Positions 34,102 through 43,942 of a stretch of DNA of 64,000 nucleotides are shown piece after piece. The notes beneath the pieces were generated by a model. It searched no databases and had not been told where the DNA came from. It saw only the letters and a list, made by a program, of their open reading frames with translations. The stretch's first letter is position 1. Every line of letters begins with the position of its first letter. Source of the stretch: Robiginitomaculum sp. (GTDB lineage Bacteria; Pseudomonadota; Alphaproteobacteria; Caulobacterales; Maricaulaceae); the NCBI GenBank assembly GCA_021776515.1, contig JAJFFS010000015.1, positions 1 to 64,000 of the forward strand. Reading direction: 5' to 3'. A program made the translations under genes and the position numbers.

Positions 34102-35580
34102 ATGGGACAACTAACAGACATTTTGATTATTGGCGGCGGTATAAATGGTGCGGGGATTGCCCGTGACGCGGCCGGGCGCGGCCTCTCTGTAGTGCTCTGC
34201 GAACAAGGCGATCTGGCCGGTGCCACCTCATCTGCCAGCACCAAAATGGTCCATGGCGGCTTGCGCTATCTTGAGTATTACGAATTTAAACTGGTCCGCG
34301 AAGCTTTGGCCGAACGCGAACGCCTGTTGAATATAGCGCCGCATCTGGTAACGCCCCTGCGCCTGATATTACCGCATATACCAGCCATGCGCCCGGCCAT
34401 CATGATCCGCGCCGGATTATGGCTTTATGACCACATCGGAGGGCATTCCAGCCTGCCAAAATCCGGCAGTGTGAAATTGCAGGACTGCGTTGAAGCCGCT
34501 AATTTACAGCACACCGAGGGTCGGGCCTTTGTCTATTCAGATGGCTGGAGTGATGATGCCCGGCTAGTTGTGGCCAATGCACAGGATGCCAAAGCGCACG
34601 GCGCCGACATTCACACCCGCACCAAAGTTATTTCCTGCACCCGTGAAGGCGATCACTGGCTGGTAACGGCGAAAGATGGTGACGGCAAAACCAAAACATG
34701 GCGTGCCCGTGCCGTCATAAACGCCGCCGGGCCGTGGGTGGATGTTATGGATACCTGCACTGGTGCCAAGGCAGTGGCGCGTATGCATCTGGTCAAAGGC
34801 AGCCACATCGTCCTGCCCAAACTGTTTGATGGCGAACGTGGGTTTCTGTTTCAGCATGATGACAGGCGGGTATTGTTTGCCCTGCCCTATCAGGGCGAAT
34901 TCACCCTCTTTGGCACCACAGATACGCCCTTTACCGGCGACCCTTACACGGCAAAGCTGGATGATGATGAGCGCGACTACCTTCTTGATGCGGCTAATCA
35001 TTTCTTCGCTGGCAAGATCAGCAAGAAAGACATTGTCTGGTCATATTCCGGCGTGCGGGCATTATTTGGCGATGAAGATGCCAGCGCATCCGAATTGTCA
35101 CGCGAATACCATCTGGAACTGTCTGACCAGAAAAACGGCGCGCCGGTGCTAACCGTTCTGGGTGGCAAGATCACCACCTTTCGGGCGTTGGCTGAAAAGG
35201 CAGTGGACCAGATTGCAAGGTGCCTTGGTAATGCCAAACCACGCTGGACCAGCACAATGCCCTTGCCCGGTGGTGATCTGCCAAATGGTTCGCTAGAGGC
35301 CTTTGGCAAGCTGATTCAGGCACAATACCCATTCCTGCCAGATGCGCTGAGGGCGCGTCTTTGCCGCACCTATGGCACCCGCCTGGAACTGATTTTGGAC
35401 AAAGCCAACAGTCTGGATGATCTGGGTCAGCATTTTGGCGGCGGACTTTATGCGGCAGAGCTGGATTATCTAAAACAACATGAGTGGGCCAAATGCGCCG
35501 AAGATGTGTTGTGGCGGCGCACCAAACTGGGCTTGTTTATGAATGCGGCAGAGCGCAAGGCGCTTGGACAAGCCTTTTAA
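34102..35580 (+). CDS. glpD: Glycerol-3-phosphate dehydrogenase (aerobic)
   Basis: This is a 492-residue membrane-associated FAD enzyme that oxidises glycerol 3-phosphate to dihydroxyacetone phosphate and feeds electrons to quinone. IIGGGINGAGIARDAAGRGLSV is the FAD motif (residues 9-30), and STKMVHGGLRYLEYYEFKLVREAL is a strong GlpD signature. The C-terminal domain (from about 390) completes it. AAGGAAG precedes the start. No glpF transporter is present. The end overlaps sufT by four bases on the other strand. Confidence 0.94.
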   Translation: MGQLTDILIIGGGINGAGIARDAAGRGLSVVLCEQGDLAGATSSASTKMVHGGLRYLEYYEFKLVREALAERERLLNIAPHLVTPLRLILPHIPAMRPAIMIRAGLWLYDHIGGHSSLPKSGSVKLQDCVEAANLQHTEGRAFVYSDGWSDDARLVVANAQDAKAHGADIHTRTKVISCTREGDHWLVTAKDGDGKTKTWRARAVINAAGPWVDVMDTCTGAKAVARMHLVKGSHIVLPKLFDGERGFLFQHDDRRVLFALPYQGEFTLFGTTDTPFTGDPYTAKLDDDERDYLLDAANHFFAGKISKKDIVWSYSGVRALFGDEDASASELSREYHLELSDQKNGAPVLTVLGGKITTFRALAEKAVDQIARCLGNAKPRWTSTMPLPGGDLPNGSLEAFGKLIQAQYPFLPDALRARLCRTYGTRLELILDKANSLDDLGQHFGGGLYAAELDYLKQHEWAKCAEDVLWRRTKLGLFMNAAERKALGQAF

Positions 35581-35975
35581 AACATATTCAGTTCTAACCG
35601 TGCCACATCAGACATACGTGAGGGATCCCAGGGTGGATCAAAGATAAGGTTCACTTTTACATCACGCACACCCTGCACAGAGCGTGCGGCGTTCTCCACC
35701 CAAAGCACCATATCTTCGGCAACCGGGCAGCCCGGCGCCGTCAGCGTCATATCCACATCAACATCGCGGTCATCGCTGACATCAACCTTGTAGATCAGGC
35801 CCAGTTCGTACACATCAACCGGAATTTCCGGATCATACACGCTTTTGAAGGCGGCAATCAGATCCTCGGTCAAACGGTCCAGTTCTTCCTTGGGCAGGGC
35901 AGAGCCAGAAACGGCTTCCGGCACCTCAGGCTTGGGCGCTGAAATATCAATGGTGTCCCTTAGTTTACTATCCAC
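35577..35975 (-). CDS. sufT: SUF system protein SufT (DUF59/MIP18)
   Basis: This is a 132-residue Fe-S assembly protein with a MIP18 (DUF59) domain: YDPEIPVDVYELGLIYKVDV, then MTLTAPGCPVAEDM with its reactive cysteine, and VNLIFDPPWDPSRMSDVARLELNMF. SufT helps mature Fe-S clusters in some bacteria, particularly under high demand. It is the last gene of the suf operon, separated from sufS by a 108-bp REP-like repeat region. The start is GTG (35975) with GGGG upstream. Confidence 0.92.
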   Translation of the reverse strand: MDSKLRDTIDISAPKPEVPEAVSGSALPKEELDRLTEDLIAAFKSVYDPEIPVDVYELGLIYKVDVSDDRDVDVDMTLTAPGCPVAEDMVLWVENAARSVQGVRDVKVNLIFDPPWDPSRMSDVARLELNMF

Positions 35976-35993
35976 AACAATCCCCAGCTATCT

Positions 35994-36061
35994 CCTCATC
36001 CTGAGCTTGTCGAAGGATGAAAAATGTAATGCCCTCGTATTTCGACAGGCTCAACATGAGG
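35994..36061. repeat. REP-like repeat inside the suf operon
   Basis: An inverted copy of the repeat (core catcctgagcttgtcgaagg) covers 35994-36018, followed by a diverged forward copy (tttcgacaggctcaacatga) around 36040-36061. It lies in the 108-bp gap between sufS and sufT and may reduce read-through to sufT. Confidence 0.8.
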
Positions 36062-36083
36062 GCGTTGTTGTTCTGTATTCTTA

Positions 36084-37328
36084 TCATGATAAAAACTCTC
36101 TGGCCTTGGCAAAGGCCTCCAAAAAACGATCCACATCTTCGTCGGTATTATAGGCGGCAAAGCTGGCCCGACAGGTAGAGCTGGCCTCAAAGCGGTGCAT
36201 TAATGGCTCGGCGCAATGATTGCCGGCACGCACCGCCACGCCATAGCGATCCATTAACTGCGCCAGATCATGAGCGTGCATGCCGCGCACATCAAAGGAC
36301 ACCACCGCACCCTTGCCCGGCGCTTCGCCAATAATGCGCACATCATTATATTGCGTTAGACCTTCGGTAGTCCGTGCCGCCAAAGCGCTTTCATGTTCGG
36401 CTAGGGCAATCCGGTCCAACCCCATCATCCAGTTCAGCGCCATGCCAAGGCCAATGGCCTCCAGAATGGGTGGCGTTCCGGCCTCAAAGCGGTGGGGGGG
36501 CACGCCGTAGATGATATTATCCTTGCTGACGCTTTCGATCATTTCACCGCCGCCCTGATAAGGACGCATGGTCTTTAGTCTATCGGCTTTGCCATAAAGC
36601 GCGCCAATGCCCGTAGGGCCATAAAGCTTGTGGCCGGTAACCGCATAAAAATCGACGCCCAAAGCCTGAACATCAACAGGCATGTGCACCGCGGCCTGCG
36701 ATCCATCCAGCAAAATGGGTACATCATGACCATGGGCAACGTCGACCAGCGCCTTCGCATCGGTAATGGTGCCAGTAACATTGGACATGTGGGTTAGGGC
36801 AACAAATCTGGTTTTGGGGCCAAAGGCATCCTTATAGGCCTGCATATCTAACTGGCCATCATCCAGTACCCCCACCCATTTCAGCACCACGCCTTTTCGT
36901 GTCCGCAGGAAATGCCAGGGCACAATATTGGAATGGTGTTCCATTTCCGAAAGGATGATTTCATCACCCGGGGCCAAATCAGCGCCAATGCCGGAGGCCA
37001 CCAGGTTAATCGCCTCGGTGGTGCCGGAGGTGAAAATAATTTCATCACTATCAGCAGCATTTAAAAATTTTGCGACGGTTTTGCGCGCGCCCTCAAAGCT
37101 TTCCGTGGTCTCATTGGCCATAGTGTGCAAACCGCGATGCACATTGGCATAAGAGGTGCGCATTTGTTCTGCCATACCATCAATAACGCAAGCAGGTTTT
37201 TGCGCCGATGCGGCACTATCCAGATACGTCAGGGCATTGCCGTTCACAGTTCTGCCCAGCACAGGAAATTCTGTGCGGATGGCATAGGGGTCAAAGCTGG
37301 CCGGCGCTTGCAGAAATGAAGCACTCAT
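36084..37328 (-). CDS. sufS: SufS-type cysteine desulfurase
   Basis: This 414-residue PLP enzyme takes sulfur from cysteine for Fe-S assembly. The PLP-binding Lys234 is in TGHKLYGPTG, and the catalytic persulfide Cys372 is in RAGNHCAEP (group II motif). HHSNIVPW near 132 and DGSQAAVH near 208 are family hallmarks. ATG 37328 has GGAGG upstream and overlaps the sufD stop by ATGA. No SufE, its usual sulfur acceptor, is in the window. Confidence 0.95.
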   Translation of the reverse strand: MSASFLQAPASFDPYAIRTEFPVLGRTVNGNALTYLDSAASAQKPACVIDGMAEQMRTSYANVHRGLHTMANETTESFEGARKTVAKFLNAADSDEIIFTSGTTEAINLVASGIGADLAPGDEIILSEMEHHSNIVPWHFLRTRKGVVLKWVGVLDDGQLDMQAYKDAFGPKTRFVALTHMSNVTGTITDAKALVDVAHGHDVPILLDGSQAAVHMPVDVQALGVDFYAVTGHKLYGPTGIGALYGKADRLKTMRPYQGGGEMIESVSKDNIIYGVPPHRFEAGTPPILEAIGLGMALNWMMGLDRIALAEHESALAARTTEGLTQYNDVRIIGEAPGKGAVVSFDVRGMHAHDLAQLMDRYGVAVRAGNHCAEPLMHRFEASSTCRASFAAYNTDEDVDRFLEAFAKAREFLS

Positions 37329-38506
37329 AACTTTTCCTCCAGCCACAATTTTATCGGCTCCATCATCATATCATGCAAGGTTTCGTCCTTGAGATCATCA
37401 AATGCCGCCCCCACAAATGCACGAATGAGCAAGGCCTTGGCCTCGGCTTCATCAAGACCGCGCTGGCGCATATAAAACAGTGCATTTTCATCCAGCGCAC
37501 CGCTAGTATTACCATGGGCGCAGGCGACATCATCCGCATAAATTTCCAGCTCCGGCTTAGCGTTTACGCAGGCACCAGCGTTCAGCACTATGGCATCATG
37601 GTTCATGCTGGCATCCGTATGCTGCCCTGCCCGCGCAACATGAAATTTGCCTTGAAACACGCCGCGAGCGCTATCCTTCACCACACCGCGCACCAATTGC
37701 GCCGTAGTACAATTCTCAACCCCGTGGTCCACGTGAAAGGTCTGGTCCGCATGGCGTTCACCATCCAGCAAATACGCGCCGTTTAGCCGTGCACGGGCAT
37801 CTTCACCCTGATAGGTCACCCAGGTTTCAAGACGCGCCAGTCGCGCCCCAAAACCAAGAGAAAACTGGTCAAGTTTTGCCGATTTTGCCAAACTAATATC
37901 GGCGCTCACCACATGGACCGCACCGGCGCCGGATTTGTGATGCACCAATCGGCTCAAACGGGCGTTATCTGCCAAGACATAATGCAATGCTGTATTGGAA
38001 AACCCCGTTTGCGCACCATGATCCTCGATAATATGCGCCTGGGATTGGGCCGCCAGCTCCACTTTTATCTGGCTATGTCCCTGCCCTTCAACGCTTATGA
38101 AAAGTGGCACATCAATGTTGCCCTCAATACGCAAGGTTATACTTGTCGCCGCCAAAGCACCGGCCAGATTAATCATTGGCAATTTGGTTGTCAGAGCAAC
38201 CACTTTACCAATGCCAAGCTGCACACCAATTGGTAAATCCGGGATGTCTTTAATTTGCCCATCGACAATGCGAAGGACCATCGCATTCGATGGCGCTTTT
38301 AATCGACGAACGGGGCTTGTTGCCTCATCAGGTTTTTTGGCCAAAGCCTGACGCACATCAGTCCATTTCCAGGCTTCCACACGCCGGTGCGGCAAGCCGG
38401 TTTTGGCAAAGCGTGCAAAGGCCTCTGCCCGCACGGGGCTTGGCGACATTGCCTCATAAGCGGCACGCAGGGCGTCCTCCGCAGGATGGGGTTTACGTGC
38501 AATCAC
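37325..38506 (-). CDS. sufD: Fe-S scaffold protein SufD
   Basis: This 393-residue protein, with SufB and SufC, forms the SufBC2D scaffold on which Fe-S clusters are built. The C-terminal family motif is visible: DVACAHGNTSGALDENALFYMRQRGL, followed by ALLIRAFVGAAFDDL. HRRVEAWKWTDVRQAL near the N-terminus is typical. The GTG start at 38506 overlaps the sufC stop. It is downstream of sufC in the usual SUF order. Confidence 0.94.
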   Translation of the reverse strand: MIARKPHPAEDALRAAYEAMSPSPVRAEAFARFAKTGLPHRRVEAWKWTDVRQALAKKPDEATSPVRRLKAPSNAMVLRIVDGQIKDIPDLPIGVQLGIGKVVALTTKLPMINLAGALAATSITLRIEGNIDVPLFISVEGQGHSQIKVELAAQSQAHIIEDHGAQTGFSNTALHYVLADNARLSRLVHHKSGAGAVHVVSADISLAKSAKLDQFSLGFGARLARLETWVTYQGEDARARLNGAYLLDGERHADQTFHVDHGVENCTTAQLVRGVVKDSARGVFQGKFHVARAGQHTDASMNHDAIVLNAGACVNAKPELEIYADDVACAHGNTSGALDENALFYMRQRGLDEAEAKALLIRAFVGAAFDDLKDETLHDMMMEPIKLWLEEKL

Positions 38507-39258
38507 GCGGCGGCCCCTGCATAAGAATCATAGCCTTCGGCTTCAAGTTTTAGTGCCAGTTCAGGCCCGCCACTTTGCACAATCCGGCCATCCCACATGA
38601 CATGCACCACATCAGGTTTGATATAATCCAAAAGGCGCTGGTAATGGGTGATCACCAGCATGGAACGGTCGGGCGCGCGCAGGGCATTGACCCCCTCGGC
38701 CACGACTTTCAGGGCATCAATATCCAGCCCGCTATCGGTTTCATCCAGTATGGCAAAACGAGGCTCCAGCACCGCCATTTGCAAAATTTCCATACGCTTT
38801 TTCTCACCGCCGGAAAATCCGACATTAAGCGGGCGTTTCAGCATGTCTGCCTTGACCTTCAACAGCGCCGCCTTGTCCCGCGCCCGTTTCAGAAAATCAG
38901 GCGCAGACAGATCATCCTCGCCGCGCCGTTTGCGCTGGGCATTGAGGCTGGCACGCAGGAAAGTCATGGCCGGCACGCCCGGAATTTCAACCGGGTATTG
39001 AAACGACAGGAACACACCCATGGCGGCGCGTTCTTCTGGCTCCATAGCCAGTAAATCTTCGCCTTCAAAGCGGGCGCTGCCCCCCTTGATGTCATAGCCC
39101 TCGCGCCCGGTCAGCACATTGGCCAGCGTCGACTTACCGGTGCCGTTTGGCCCCATAATCGCATGCACCTGCCCCGCCGGAATATCCAGTGACAAACCTT
39201 TGATGATGTCACCTTCGACACCCTCAACACCTACGCGCAGGTCCTTGATTTTAATCAT
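38503..39258 (-). CDS. sufC: SUF ATPase SufC
   Basis: This 251-residue ABC-type ATPase drives SufBC2D. Walker A GPNGTGKST is at residues 36-44, the ABC signature FSGGEKKRMEI is near 148, and Walker B (FAILDETDSGLDIDAL) follows. It lacks a membrane domain and works in the cytosol. Its start abuts the cupin gene (one base shared with that stop), and its stop overlaps the sufD start by four bases. Confidence 0.96.
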   Translation of the reverse strand: MIKIKDLRVGVEGVEGDIIKGLSLDIPAGQVHAIMGPNGTGKSTLANVLTGREGYDIKGGSARFEGEDLLAMEPEERAAMGVFLSFQYPVEIPGVPAMTFLRASLNAQRKRRGEDDLSAPDFLKRARDKAALLKVKADMLKRPLNVGFSGGEKKRMEILQMAVLEPRFAILDETDSGLDIDALKVVAEGVNALRAPDRSMLVITHYQRLLDYIKPDVVHVMWDGRIVQSGGPELALKLEAEGYDSYAGAAA

Positions 39259-39770
39259 TATTCTTCACCATCAAAATATTCTGCTGTGCCTTTTCCCTGC
39301 CAGCCCAAATGCCGAAACTTTGCATCCCAGGGTGCGCCGCCTTCGGGTATGCCGGCAGTGGCCACAAACTTGTCTGAATCCGGGTACACAACGATAGAAG
39401 CCTGGCTGCTTGATGAAAATGCCAGATACTTCAAATCCGTATCACCGGTGTTGATAAGCTGGTGCGCGACCTCAGCCCCGCCCGGCGGTGCGCCCAGCAT
39501 ATCACCCGCTTTTACGGGATACGTTTCCTCGCCAAAGCGATAATCCGCCTGGCCTTCAATGATGTAAAACATCTCATCATCGGTCAGATGCGCATGATGC
39601 GGAAAGGCCCGTTTTCCCGGCGGCACGATGGTCAACATACAGCCCAGGTTTTTCGCGCCCAAGGCCGGGCCAAAACGCCCCAGTTTAGCGGCAAATTTCC
39701 CGCCATTTCCAAAATCCATCAGTTCCACGTCGTCAATGTTGAGGACAGGTTTATTGTGTTTCTCGGTCAT
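39258..39770 (-). CDS. Cupin protein within the suf operon
   Basis: This is a 170-residue single-domain cupin. HHAHLTDDEMFYIIEGQADYRF with downstream GDMLGAPPGGAEVAHQLINTG is the two-motif barrel with His and Glu ligands for a metal. The remainder is unusual for known SUF proteins. It lies between sufB and sufC on the same strand, 1 base overlapping sufC, with 141 bp to sufB filled by a REP-like hairpin unit. The operon position suggests that it might serve Fe or thiol chemistry in cluster assembly, but its substrate is unknown. Confidence 0.85.
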   Translation of the reverse strand: MTEKHNKPVLNIDDVELMDFGNGGKFAAKLGRFGPALGAKNLGCMLTIVPPGKRAFPHHAHLTDDEMFYIIEGQADYRFGEETYPVKAGDMLGAPPGGAEVAHQLINTGDTDLKYLAFSSSSQASIVVYPDSDKFVATAGIPEGGAPWDAKFRHLGWQGKGTAEYFDGEE

Positions 39771-39789
39771 ACTTTCTTTCCTAGTTGTC

Positions 39790-39882
39790 ACCCCGGCGAA
39801 GGCCGGGGTCCAGGTGTGAGTTCATTCCAGCGTGCGCTTTGCCAGCATTCGCGCTGCTCTGGATACCGGCCTCCGCCGGTAT
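39790..39882. repeat. Two-hairpin REP-like unit
   Basis: The hairpins are accccggc, loop gaag, gccggggt at 39790-39809, and ataccggc, loop ctcc, gccggtat at 39863-39882. This is a second repeat family, distinct from the ccttcgacaagctc units, and is found also near 3710-3796. It sits between sufB and the cupin gene, so it may affect mRNA stability there. Confidence 0.85.
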
Positions 39883-39911
39883 GACGGGGAAAGGCATAAT
39901 CGCTTTAACCA

Positions 39912-41402
39912 TCACCCCACACTCCCTTCCAGGCTAACCTTCACCAGCGCTTGCGCTTCGACGGCAAATTCCATGGGTAGTTTTTGCAAAACATCCCGGG
40001 CGAAGCCATTAACCAGCAGCGCCGTGGCTTCCTCGCCATCAAGGCCGCGCTGGCGACAATAAAAGAGTTGTTCTTCGGATAGTTTAGTTGTGGTGGCTTC
40101 GTGTTCAAGCTGCGCGTCCGGGGTTTTTACCTCAATATAAGGCACTGTGTGTGCGCCGCATTCATTGCCCACGAGCAAGCTGTCACACTGGGTAAAATTA
40201 CGCGCCCCGCTGGCCTTTTGATGCACGCTGACCAACCCGCGATAGGTGTTGTTAGACCGACCCGCCGAAATCCCCTTGGAAATAATGCGCGAGCGGGTGT
40301 TCTTGCCCAAATGGATCATCTTGGTACCAGTATCGGCCTGTTGTGCGCCATTGGTGATGGCCACCGAGTAAAACTCGCCCTGGCTATCATCCCCGCGCAA
40401 AACGCAGGACGGATATTTCCACGTGATAGACGAGCCGGTTTCCACTTGTGTCCATGACACGCGGGAGCGCACACCCCGGCAGTCAGCGCGCTTGGTGACA
40501 AAGTTATACACCCCGCCCTGACCATCTTCATCGCCGGGCCACCAGTTTTGCACTGTGGAGTATTTGATCTCGGCATCGTCCAGCACAACCAGTTCAACCA
40601 CGGCGGCATGAAGCTGATTTTCCTCGCGCATCGGCGCGGTGCAGCCTTCAAGATAAGAGACATAAGCCCCTTCATCAGCAATGATCAGCGTGCGTTCAAA
40701 CTGACCGGTGCTTTGCGCATTCATACGAAAATAGGTAGATAGCTCCATTGGGCAGCGCACCCCCTTGGGGATGTAAACAAAGGTGCCATCGGAAAAAACG
40801 GCGGTGTTTAACGTGGCAAAAAAATTATCTGTGGGCGGTACCACAGTGCCCAGGTATTGGCGCACCAGTTCCGGGTGATCGTGGACGGCCTCGGAGAAAG
40901 AACAGAAAATTACCCCGGATTTGGCCAGTTCAGCCCTAAATGTAGTGGCCACGGATACAGAATCAAATACCGCATCAACCGCCACCTTTGGTGCGCCTTC
41001 AACACCCAAAAGAACTTCCTGTTCTTTTAAGGGAATGCCCAGTTTTTCATAGGTCGCCAGAATATCCGGGTCGATCTCGTCCAGGCTTTTAGGGCCGTCA
41101 CCTTCCTTTTTGGGTGCGGCAAAATAATACATGTCCTGATAGTCAATTTTGGGATAATTGACCATCGCCCATGTTGGTTCCTCCATGGCAAGCCAGCGCC
41201 GATAAGCGGCAAGGCGCCATTCCAGCAACCATTCAGGCTCGTCCTTTTTGGCCGAAATAAAGCGCACAATGTCTTCGTTCAACCCCTTGGGGGCAAATTC
41301 CTGTTCTATATCAGTGCTAAAGCCGTATTTATATTTATCGGCCTCAAGCCCGCGCGCGGCCTCTACGGTCGAGCGATCAATGCTTTCTTTTATCTCAACC
41401 AT
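39912..41402 (-). CDS. sufB: Fe-S scaffold protein SufB
   Basis: This is a 496-residue core scaffold protein on which Fe-S clusters assemble. Conserved stretches include [12 protein letters not shown] near the N-terminus, [38 protein letters not shown], and the C-terminal [14 protein letters not shown] and [19 protein letters not shown] 41402 has GGAG at suitable spacing and lies one base into the upstream desulfurase stop; GTG 41405 is an alternative. Confidence 0.96.
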
Positions 41403-42541
41403 CACCCGCTCCCTTTTAGGCAGACGCGGCCATAGGCCTCACCCCAGGCCGCGACAAAGGCATCCAGTTCATCTTGCCTGGTATTTTTTCCCAGCGAGAT
41501 GCGCACGGCATTGGCAGCCAAATCGCCCGGCAAATTCATCGCCAGCATCACTACACTGGCCTTGACCTTGCCCGAAGAACAGGCCGAGCCGGAGGAAATG
41601 GCAAAACCGGCCAAATCCATGCTCATAAGTTGTGTATCGGCAGCAAACCCTGGTGTTGCCAGACACAGGGTATTGCACAGACGCGGCGCATTGCCGCCGA
41701 CCACCACGGCCCCGGGTGCCACTGCCAGCAAACGGCTTTGCAGATGATCGCGCAGCGCCGCAATGCGCTCACACTCGTCCAGGTCCTTCATCGCCGTATT
41801 GGTTGCCGCAGCAAAACCGGCAATGCCCGGAACATTTTCCGTACCACCGCGCCGGCCACTTTCCTGCCCGCCGCCAAAAGCCGTCGGGGCCAGTTTGGTG
41901 CCGCAAGCCAAAGCCAGCGCGCCCATGCCCATTGGCCCGCCAATTTTGTGCGCCGAAACGGCCAGCGTATCGGCCCCCATATCGGCAAGACGAACCGGCA
42001 TTTTACCAAAGGCCTGCACTGCATCCACATGGATAAACCCACCTGCCTCGTGCACCATATTTGCCGCTTGCTGAACCGGCTGAATAACCCCGGTTTCATT
42101 ATTAGCTGTCATCAGCGCCAGTAACGGGCGAGCGTCACCCGGAAGAGTATCAAGACGCGCCTGGAGTTCCTCAAGGTCAATCATGCCATCAGAGGTCACG
42201 GCGATGGTTTCTACAGGCAAACCGGCAGTCCCTGCCGCTACGCGAATACATGAATGTTCAACTGCACTGACAATAAAATGCGTGCAATCATTGGCCTTTG
42301 CCAATCCTAATAGCCCAAGATTATTGGCTTCTGTCCCCCCGGCAGTAAATACAACATCGCCATCTGCCGCCCCCAAAGCACTGGCAAGTGTGCGCCGGGC
42401 ATCGTCTATGGCCGCACGGGCGCGTCGCCCGGCTTCATGCACAGAAGATGGATTACCCGGTGCATCAAAGACCGCCAGCATGGCCGCGCGGGCTTCGGCG
42501 CGTAACGGCGCCGTGGCATTATAATCAAGGTAAACACTCAT
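41402..42541 (-). CDS. NifS/IscS-like cysteine desulfurase
   Basis: This is a 379-residue PLP desulfurase of group [14 protein letters not shown] opens it, Lys199 (SAHKIGGP) binds PLP, and Cys321 in SSGSACSSG is the persulfide site on a mobile loop. It is distinct from the group II SufS encoded three genes further on. In several alphaproteobacteria an IscS-like gene heads the SUF operon in this way. It is transcribed four bases after the regulator. Confidence 0.93.
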
Positions 42542-42545
42542 ACCT

Positions 42546-42998
42546 TCAGATTTTCTCCATCATACGTGCGCCACCGGCAGCACCCAGTACCCTTTTTTGC
42601 AATACATCATCCAGAGTTATCGAGCTTAAAAACAGATAGATATGACGCCCCAGTTCATCCCAAAGGTCATGAGCCAGACAGCGTCCGGTACGCCCGGTAC
42701 ACCCTAGTTTTGAGTCGCGATCACAGGCCACCGTATCAATCTGTTCATCAACCGCCATAATAATTTCAGCTATACTCGTCTCACCTGCCGGGCGGGAAAG
42801 GCGGTACCCGCCACCAGGGCCACGCACACCTTTAACCACGCCACAGCGACGTAATTTGGCAAAAAGTTGTTCAAGGTAGGATATGGAAATATCCTGTCTC
42901 TCAGCTATCTCGGCAAGCGTTACCGGCCCCTGCTCTTTTATCGATGCCATGTCGGCCAAAGCCATTACCGCATAGCGTCCTCTTGCACTGAGTTTCAT
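42546..42998 (-). CDS. iscR: Rrf2 family regulator (IscR-like)
   Basis: This is a 150-residue regulator with an N-terminal winged helix-turn-helix. Cysteines at 92, 100 and 107 (VACDRDSKLGC and GRCLAHDL) match the cluster-binding positions of IscR-like regulators, so Fe-S sensing is likely. GVRGPGGGYRLSRP is the wing motif. It heads the suf operon, which it probably controls according to iron and cluster status. It is divergent from the alpha/beta hydrolase gene across a 251-bp intergenic region. Confidence 0.92.
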   Translation of the reverse strand: MKLSARGRYAVMALADMASIKEQGPVTLAEIAERQDISISYLEQLFAKLRRCGVVKGVRGPGGGYRLSRPAGETSIAEIIMAVDEQIDTVACDRDSKLGCTGRTGRCLAHDLWDELGRHIYLFLSSITLDDVLQKRVLGAAGGARMMEKI

Positions 42999-43125
42999 GA
43001 CTTTCTTCCCTTATTCTCACTTCATGTCTCGCCATGCGCGCCAAGGCTATGCTAGAAGGCGGCAATCGTATCAACGAAGGCATTAAACCAAACGCTACAC
43101 TTGAAATAAAAACTGCAATAACCCA

Positions 43126-43149
43126 CTATTTTAGTCAAGAATAAAATAG
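43126..43149. promoter_or_regulatory. Palindrome in the suf divergent promoter region
   Basis: An eight-base perfect inverted repeat ctatttta ... taaaatag, with an 8-base spacer, lies between the Rrf2 regulator (suf operon) and the alpha/beta hydrolase gene. It is a candidate operator for the Rrf2 regulator. Its symmetry is clear; its function is inferred. Confidence 0.4.
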
Positions 43150-43249
43150 CAGTTAAGTAAATGAAATATACGACTATATGCGGTTGATACATAAAAAATA
43201 AAACCTACTTTCATGGTTGAAAACGCAAATAATACGGGACCAAAACATT

Positions 43250-43942
43250 ATGCCTGAAGTCATCATCCCCGGCCCAGAAGGTCGTCTGGAAGGTCATTAC
43301 TCGCCCGCTGAAGCAGAAGATGCACCATTGGCGCTGATCCTGCATGCCCACCCACAAGGCGGTGGCTCCATGAATACTCGTGTTATGACTGGCCTTTATG
43401 ATATTTTCCGGCGGCGTGGCTATACTACTTTACGCTTTAACGCGCGCGGGGTCGGGCGCAGTGTTGGTGAATATGACCATGGGCAAGGAGAATTACAGGA
43501 CGCGGCAACCGTACTGGACTGGATGCAGGCGCTAAACCCCAATGCGTCCTTTTGCTGGGTTGCCGGGCATTCTTTTGGATCATGGATTGGGATGCAACTT
43601 TTGATGCGCAGACCGGAAATCCGGGGCTTTATTTCTGTGTCACCACCAATGAATATGTATGACTTTGGCTTTCTGGCGCCCTGCCCGGCTTCGGGCTTGC
43701 TGATCTACGGCTCAGACGACCGTATATGCCCACCAGACGAGATTGAACGGGTTTCTGAAAAAATACGTATTCAGAGGGGCACACTGCTCACCCATAAAAT
43801 CGTACCTGGCGCCGGACATTTGTTTGACAATCATGTCGAAGAACTTGAAACGGAAGTTGAAACCTATCTTGATTATCGCCACAACGGCGCGGTTGACCCT
43901 TCTTTGGAAGAATACATGCAGACGAAAAAGGGGCGGCGGTAA
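43250..43942 (+). CDS. Alpha/beta hydrolase
   Basis: This 230-residue cytosolic hydrolase has an alpha/beta fold. The oxyanion segment HAHPQGGGSMNT is near residues 33-44 and the nucleophile elbow GHSFGSW places Ser at about residue 108. Asp in YGSDDRICPP and the late GAGHLFDN complete the triad. ATG 43250 is chosen; an upstream in-frame TTG at 43217 has no binding site. The substrate is unknown. It is divergent from the suf operon. Confidence 0.82.
   Translation: MPEVIIPGPEGRLEGHYSPAEAEDAPLALILHAHPQGGGSMNTRVMTGLYDIFRRRGYTTLRFNARGVGRSVGEYDHGQGELQDAATVLDWMQALNPNASFCWVAGHSFGSWIGMQLLMRRPEIRGFISVSPPMNMYDFGFLAPCPASGLLIYGSDDRICPPDEIERVSEKIRIQRGTLLTHKIVPGAGHLFDNHVEELETEVETYLDYRHNGAVDPSLEEYMQTKKGRR

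Follow-up and report, generated by a model that had tools for sequence, protein, structure and literature searches.

In this study, the isc-suf operon of Robiginitomaculum sp. was found to carry a metal-site cupin gene between its sufB and sufC; the operon was read in a stretch of 64,000 nucleotides that is called the window here. The sufB-cupin-sufC arrangement is real and occurs in several alphaproteobacterial groups, where its distribution is patchy. The cupin is probably an old, mostly vertically kept and co-regulated passenger of the sufB-sufC junction with a metal-dependent function of its own. Since relatives carry many unrelated genes at the spot of the cupin, a passenger is likelier than a component of the assembly machinery.

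The operon is read from the minus strand in the order Rrf2-iscS-sufB-cupin-sufC-sufD-sufS-DUF59 (Table 1). It corresponds to the alphaproteobacterial isc-suf type, with sufB, sufC, sufD and sufS in order and preceded by iscS and an Rrf2 regulator. The regulator reached 173.9 bits with the NCBIfam model TIGR02010 (IscR), under the cut-off of 207.55. The original prediction had placed a cupin ORF between sufB and sufC, and its existence, strand and coordinates were confirmed, the neighbours being NCBIfam equivalogs above their cut-offs. It had also described the cupin as a part of the operon that shares one base with sufC; this agreed with our reading, as base 39258 in TAATG is common to the stop codon TAA of the cupin and the ATG of sufC. 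Overlaps were likewise found between the listed ORFs of iscS and sufB, sufC and sufD, and sufD and sufS. The earlier picture of the operon is to be corrected at the other end of the cupin gene, which is not tightly joined to sufB. Two copies of an interspersed repeat lie in the spacer in inverted orientation, at 39793-39813 on the plus strand and 39859-39879 on the minus strand; when up to 1 mismatch was allowed, this repeat was counted 15 times over the whole genome, and the reversed control gave 0. Scanning of positions 39200-40000 gave one promoter-like site (shuffle mean 0.5) and no terminator (shuffle mean 1.0), and the single Rfam match over 35500-43300 was below the gathering score.

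Table 1. Genes of the isc-suf operon and the spacer upstream of the cupin gene, with their positions in the window.
Feature	Positions	Strand	Basis or remark
Rrf2-family regulator, IscR-like, first gene of the operon	42546..42998	minus	NCBIfam TIGR00738 above cut-off
IscS/NifS-type cysteine desulfurase	41402..42541	minus	Pfam Aminotran_5; top NCBIfam match TIGR03402, below its cut-off
sufB	39912..41405	minus	NCBIfam NF008773, 901.9 bits, cut-off 717
sufB-cupin spacer, 141 bp	39771..39911		sole gap among the listed ORFs iscS, sufB, cupin, sufC, sufD and sufS
Single-domain Cupin_2 protein, 170 aa	39258..39770	minus	listed ORF; predicted ligands H59, H61, E66 and H103 (numbered from the ATG at 39770)
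sufC	38503..39258	minus	NCBIfam TIGR01978, 339.9 bits, cut-off 212.8
sufD	37325..38506	minus	NCBIfam TIGR01981, 224.4 bits, cut-off 222
sufS	36084..37346	minus	NCBIfam TIGR01979, 522.7 bits, cut-off 475.1
DUF59 SUF-associated protein	35577..35975	minus	NCBIfam TIGR02945, 145.7 bits, cut-off 143.4; Pfam PF01883

The start of the cupin gene could be read directly in the sequence as the ATG at 39770 with AGGAAAG upstream, and an in-frame GTG is located ahead of it at 39791. The protein belongs to the Pfam family PF07883 (Cupin_2), which it matched with an E value of 2.9e-16 and 59.3 bits against a cut-off of 27.2. In the two motifs of cupins, three histidines and one glutamate are the expected metal ligands. 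The corresponding residues H59, H61, E66 and H103 of the predicted site were invariant in 60/60 aligned cupins, in a hand-picked alignment of the window cupin and 59 of the 80 named loci described below, and the YPDS motif of residues 129-132 was likewise invariant in 60/60. The single-domain metal-site cupin of the original prediction is thus borne out at the level of the family match and the predicted ligands. An artefact or shadow ORF was ruled out by the Pfam match, the ribosome-binding site and the conserved ligands. No family was found in the NCBIfam scan at E values up to 0.001, and no SUF-labelled family of Pfam or NCBIfam matched the cupin.

The AlphaFold2 model of the cupin built with the 60-sequence alignment had a mean pLDDT of 93.3 and replaced an earlier model from 18 sequences (pLDDT 74.6). 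Its best fold match in the PDB was 3l2h (Z 19.3, rmsd 3.4, 150 residues), followed by 3i7d (Z 18.8, rmsd 2.0, 148 residues), and the same two entries were the top sequence matches. The window cupin therefore belongs with the SPO2919-like cupins 3l2h (AFE_0303) and 3i7d (SPO2919) by a full-length match in both structure and sequence, at an identity of just 21-22% in the structural alignment. Both entries are titled 'sugar phosphate isomerase', and their family label is presumably COG3837/cd02224; we know of no biochemical test behind this title. The fold searches named many cupin functions and favoured none of them, and a literature search on the names of the SPO2919-like cupins gave no relevant paper.

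The original prediction stated, as far as its knowledge went, that known suf operons carry no cupin at this point. This did not hold, as the survey of the suf operons of relatives found the same cupin across several alphaproteobacterial groups. Among the best 80 of 416 relatives, which were found by similarity with the suf-linked alignment and are called the named loci here, the cupin lay between sufB and sufC in 65/80; one of the two genes was seen beside it in 4/80 and neither in 11/80. Such a placement in 65 of the 80 loci excludes chance. The closest named relatives were from Robiginitomaculum MAGs, with a top identity of 91% at the cupin, and the hosts of suf-linked cupins, by their record titles, included Robiginitomaculum, Maricaulis, Parvularculaceae, many Hyphomicrobiales and some Rhodobacteraceae. 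This also ruled out a cupin unique to the window genome. In one record titled Oceanobacillus sp. HTM 045 (Bacillota; L099), we observed an alphaproteobacterial isc-suf operon with the cupin and a SufB 74% identical to that of the window, and this record is probably mislabelled or contaminated.

The majority of the suf operons sampled lacked the cupin. The suf-linked cupin was found in 18/200 genomes of the order of the window (E up to 1e-10; 48/200 genomes matched, and linkage was read from 30 fetched loci), in 14/199 genomes of the order of genome G268 (E up to 1e-20; 29/199 genomes matched, 30 loci were inspected and the 15 linked loci represent 14 genomes) and in 2/289 genomes of a family-balanced sample of the class (E up to 1e-15). 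No cupin match at E values up to 1e-10 was obtained for the congener G004, in which 78 bp separate sufB from sufC. Homologs of the cupin family were found away from suf in other genomes, and inspection by eye of the neighbours of the 11 suf-unlinked named homologs revealed none common to them. The one-base overlap of cupin and sufC was repeated in 6/66 named cupin loci; the end of the cupin was within 40 nt of sufC in 29/66 named cupins and more than 40 nt from it in 37/66, so that a tight coupling of cupin and sufC is not general. Tandem pairs were located within the slot in four named loci (L078, L083, L096 and L102); genome G640 shares its contig coordinates with L083, is the same locus and adds no further case.

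For the inheritance of the cupin, a tree was built by a quick method with 121 sequences (143 matches gave 122 distinct sequences, of which L134_0 was left out). The suf-linked label changed 6 times on this tree, compared with a mean of 36.1 for shuffled labels. The well-supported branches force at least 5 label changes, and therefore the suf-linked cupins do not form one clean clade. The distances between cupins correlated with those between the SufB proteins (r 0.58 for 57 loci, with 0/999 permutations as high), and the comparison values at the same loci were 0.51 for SufB-SufS and 0.76 for SufB-SufC. When Robiginitomaculum was omitted (46 loci), the corresponding values were 0.54, 0.49 and 0.78. 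Judged from these sequence comparisons, the data fit a mostly vertical inheritance of the cupin with the operon, with several putative gains, losses or moves. The tracking of SufB distances is no demonstration of a shared function, and the persistence of the cupin argues for its usefulness.

The sufB-sufC junction itself was found to be expanded in the order of the window. From the best 150 of 197 SufB matches and the best 150 of 197 SufC matches, 129 comparable pairs were obtained, and among these best listed matches a gap of at least 250 bp separated sufB and sufC in 102/129 genomes. Twenty order genomes had been dropped for want of a listed SufC; 18 of them were fetched later, and all 18 showed a gap of at least 250 bp. 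The class survey used the best 150 of 185 SufB-matching genomes and 134 of 150 SufC matches (the 16 others, whose genomes had no listed SufB, were left out), and 17 genomes without a listed SufC were dropped, which resulted in 132 comparable pairs. One class and one order genome were dropped due to a different contig or strand, and the window itself is included in both samples. In the class, the gap was at least 250 bp in 20/132 and less than 250 bp in 112/132 of these best listed matches, and 4 of the 20 wide gaps belonged to the order of the window. As 112 of the 132 class gaps are below 250 bp, chance insertion explains the place of the cupin less well outside this order.

The six junctions of the operon were compared in 40 genomes drawn randomly from the 129 of the order. 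A gap of at least 250 bp was found at sufB-sufC in 29/40 (27 when the genes were stretched to their longest ORF), at Rrf2-iscS in 0/30, at iscS-sufB in 0/39, at sufC-sufD in 1/40, at sufD-sufS in 0/39 and at sufS-DUF59 in 0/39. In this random sample, sufB-sufC was thus the expanded junction, with 0 or 1 wide gap at each of the other five. Exceptions were found among the named loci, with gaps of at least 250 bp at iscS-sufB in 5/59 (three of them in Parvularculaceae of the window's order), at sufC-sufD in 1/63, at sufD-sufS in 5/59 and at sufS-DUF59 in 1/55.

Unrelated families were found at this same place in relatives. In 121 slots of the order, 175 forward ORFs of at least 90 aa were found. 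They were grouped by sequence into 41 clusters, of which 20 had two or more ORFs; these recurring clusters appear to be mostly unrelated to each other in sequence. The slots had been chosen for a large gap or an unlisted SufC, and the counts of occupants are therefore not prevalences. Distinct families were merged by chaining in clusters c0, c1 and c2, and some small clusters may be non-coding. The cupins in the slots were recounted by profile, since the picking of ORFs sometimes took antisense ORFs (c5 and c10). Ten representatives were compared with Pfam: RidA was matched twice, SnoaL, glyoxalase/VOC and a different cupin were also found, four had no Pfam match and one had a ParE-like match below the cut-off. 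A crude pattern indicated a lipobox-like start in 46/175 slot ORFs. Among the selected ORFs, 192 were forward and 35 reverse, several of the latter being antisense artefacts. The last forward ORF ended within 40 nt of sufC in 63/109 order slots and more than 40 nt from it in 46/109, which, together with the 37/66 named cupins, speaks against a general role of the occupants in coupling. As the junction takes many unrelated genes, position alone is no proof of a role in Fe-S assembly.

Several individual slots were also observed. An insertion of about 7.7 kb, including an ORF of 1128 aa, separates sufB and sufC at L213 (genome G026). Five loci from the family of the window (L157, L158, L160, L275 and L276) carry a RidA-like protein and a different cupin of 122-123 aa, and L160 has the suf cupin beside both. 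The slots of L139/L250 and L198 hold a possible toxin-antitoxin pair, of which the antitoxin-like ORF was recognised by eye and the ParE-like ORF scored below the Pfam cut-off.

A published parallel to this slot concerns Muricauda, a genus of the Bacteroidota. In Muricauda olearia Th120, the AHL lactonase gene momL occupies the sufB-sufC junction and is transcribed together with suf, with a link to iron deficiency and H2O2; the authors of that study described the arrangement as previously unreported (PMC5484670). In the available part of that source, the likeness to the window is an unrelated gene inserted at sufB-sufC, but the host is not an alphaproteobacterium, the cargo is a secreted AHL lactonase and the arrangement was described as a single case. 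In the isc-suf operon of Caulobacter crescentus, a co-transcribed ORF at the same junction is annotated as an ADP-ribosylglycohydrolase, unlike the cupin of the window, and the sections available also report an IscR ChIP peak at the end of sufB, the relevance of which is unclear there (PMC11475020). The hypothetical gene RSP_0439 of Rhodobacter sphaeroides lies between sufB and sufC (PMC6956336, PMC4618611) and is tabulated next to the suf genes in expression tables on iron regulation (PMC3413700, PMC4176601); its likeness to the window cupin is one of position, the identity of the protein not being stated in the accessible parts of these papers. The locus tags of sufC (10240) and sufB (10265) in Ruegeria pomeroyi (PMC9769926) suggest, by their spacing in the part of the source available, that up to four genes lie between them. 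The literature searched on cupins in suf operons, the sufB-sufC junction, isc-suf and RSP_0439, a scope outside which most subscription papers fell, contained in its titles, abstract openings and consulted passages no description of this cupin or of a general slot.

Taken together, we propose that the metal-site cupin is probably a long-kept passenger of the sufB-sufC junction, a slot at which insertions into the alphaproteobacterial isc-suf operon recur. Passengers of this slot would gain co-transcription with suf, and the Rrf2/IscR-type regulator, together with other regulators of iron, could thereby induce them when iron is limiting. Where the stop of a passenger touches the start of sufC, as in the window, the translation of sufC would be kept going. 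The cupin itself may be a small metal-dependent enzyme or ligand-binding protein that is useful in iron-poor cells, and it would not be part of the SufBCD scaffold. The expansion of the slot, its unrelated contents, the persistence of the cupin and the published precedents of momL, Caulobacter and RSP_0439 favour a passenger. Two observations count against it: the tandem pairs in four named loci, and the suf-linked cupin being found in several orders with its residues nearly invariant, a degree of persistence that a neutral passenger would not need. If the cupin were functionally unrelated and its place had no regulatory meaning, the junction being merely tolerant to insertion, one would expect what was seen in the many unrelated occupants, the patchy presence of the cupin in the genus and family and the many occupants that are not near sufC. 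We regard such hitchhiking as the least probable of the explanations weighed here, as the expansion seen in the random order sample concerns a single junction of the six compared, the occupants are mostly in the orientation of the operon, the cupin persists by its label on the tree and its SufB-tracking distances, and co-transcription of occupants has been published, as far as the available parts of the sources go (PMC5484670, PMC11475020).

The original prediction saw in the cupin a possible accessory to cluster assembly. Its operon membership and its presence in relatives stood, so that the refuting observation named there, a lack of the cupin in the suf operons of every relative, did not arise. 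Its supposed absence from suf operons in general did not stand, and the accessory role gained no support from position, as the slot contains unrelated genes, the family also occurs off suf and a congener has no cupin. A dedicated SUF accessory would bind mononuclear Fe(II) and supply iron to, or protect sulfur transfer in, SufBCD where it is present. We consider it unlikely, although the cupin occupies the same place in several alphaproteobacterial groups, its label is clustered on the tree, its distances track SufB, its metal ligands are invariant throughout the alignment and its overlap with sufC is shared by the window and six of the 66 named loci. The low frequency of suf linkage in all three genome surveys, the congener without the cupin, the lipoprotein-like starts of many slot ORFs and the want of a match to a SUF-labelled family weigh on the other side. 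Evidence against a core SUF role comes from the variety of genes in the slot, from the homologs located off suf and from the many sampled suf operons, the majority, that have no cupin. The cupin may act directly in Fe-S assembly, but its position alone lends this no support. As the iron source of SUF is an open question, a protein with a metal site whose gene is part of the operon can be tested directly. A wider proposal, that sufB-sufC is a dedicated stress-inducible cargo slot across phyla whose oldest alphaproteobacterial resident, the cupin, has become an iron-handling partner of SufBCD and might be the iron donor still missing for SUF-only bacteria, seems quite unlikely. Two cysteine desulfurase-type proteins are encoded in the operon, and the cupin may instead be an enzyme of cysteine/persulfide or PLP by-product metabolism, active for example in thiol oxidation or repair, that clears away what the two desulfurases leave behind. 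RidA proteins, which remove 2-aminoacrylate, recur in the slot, genome G158 combines a RidA-like ORF (by eye), a second cupin of 122 aa and the suf cupin, and the modelled fold resembles that of cupins named as isomerases, lyases and dioxygenases. However, a lipobox was recognised by eye in some RidA proteins of the slot, which are probably not cytosolic, the cupin bears no substrate signature, and its nearest solved relatives carry only the isomerase title. Cysteine dioxygenases have three histidines without a glutamate, unlike the predicted site of the cupin. We find this clean-up role quite unlikely.

Because a single junction of a core operon has repeatedly taken in unrelated genes within one order, function must not be inferred from neighbourhood at sufB-sufC. 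The slot also provides a natural collection of genes for which iron-responsive co-expression may be of advantage. Gaps of 1.1-1.9 kb at sufD-sufS were found in four cupin-bearing loci (L085, L099, L100 and L111), in which this junction is a second insertion place; by their records, L085, L100 and L111 belong to Roseobacteraceae or Paracoccaceae.
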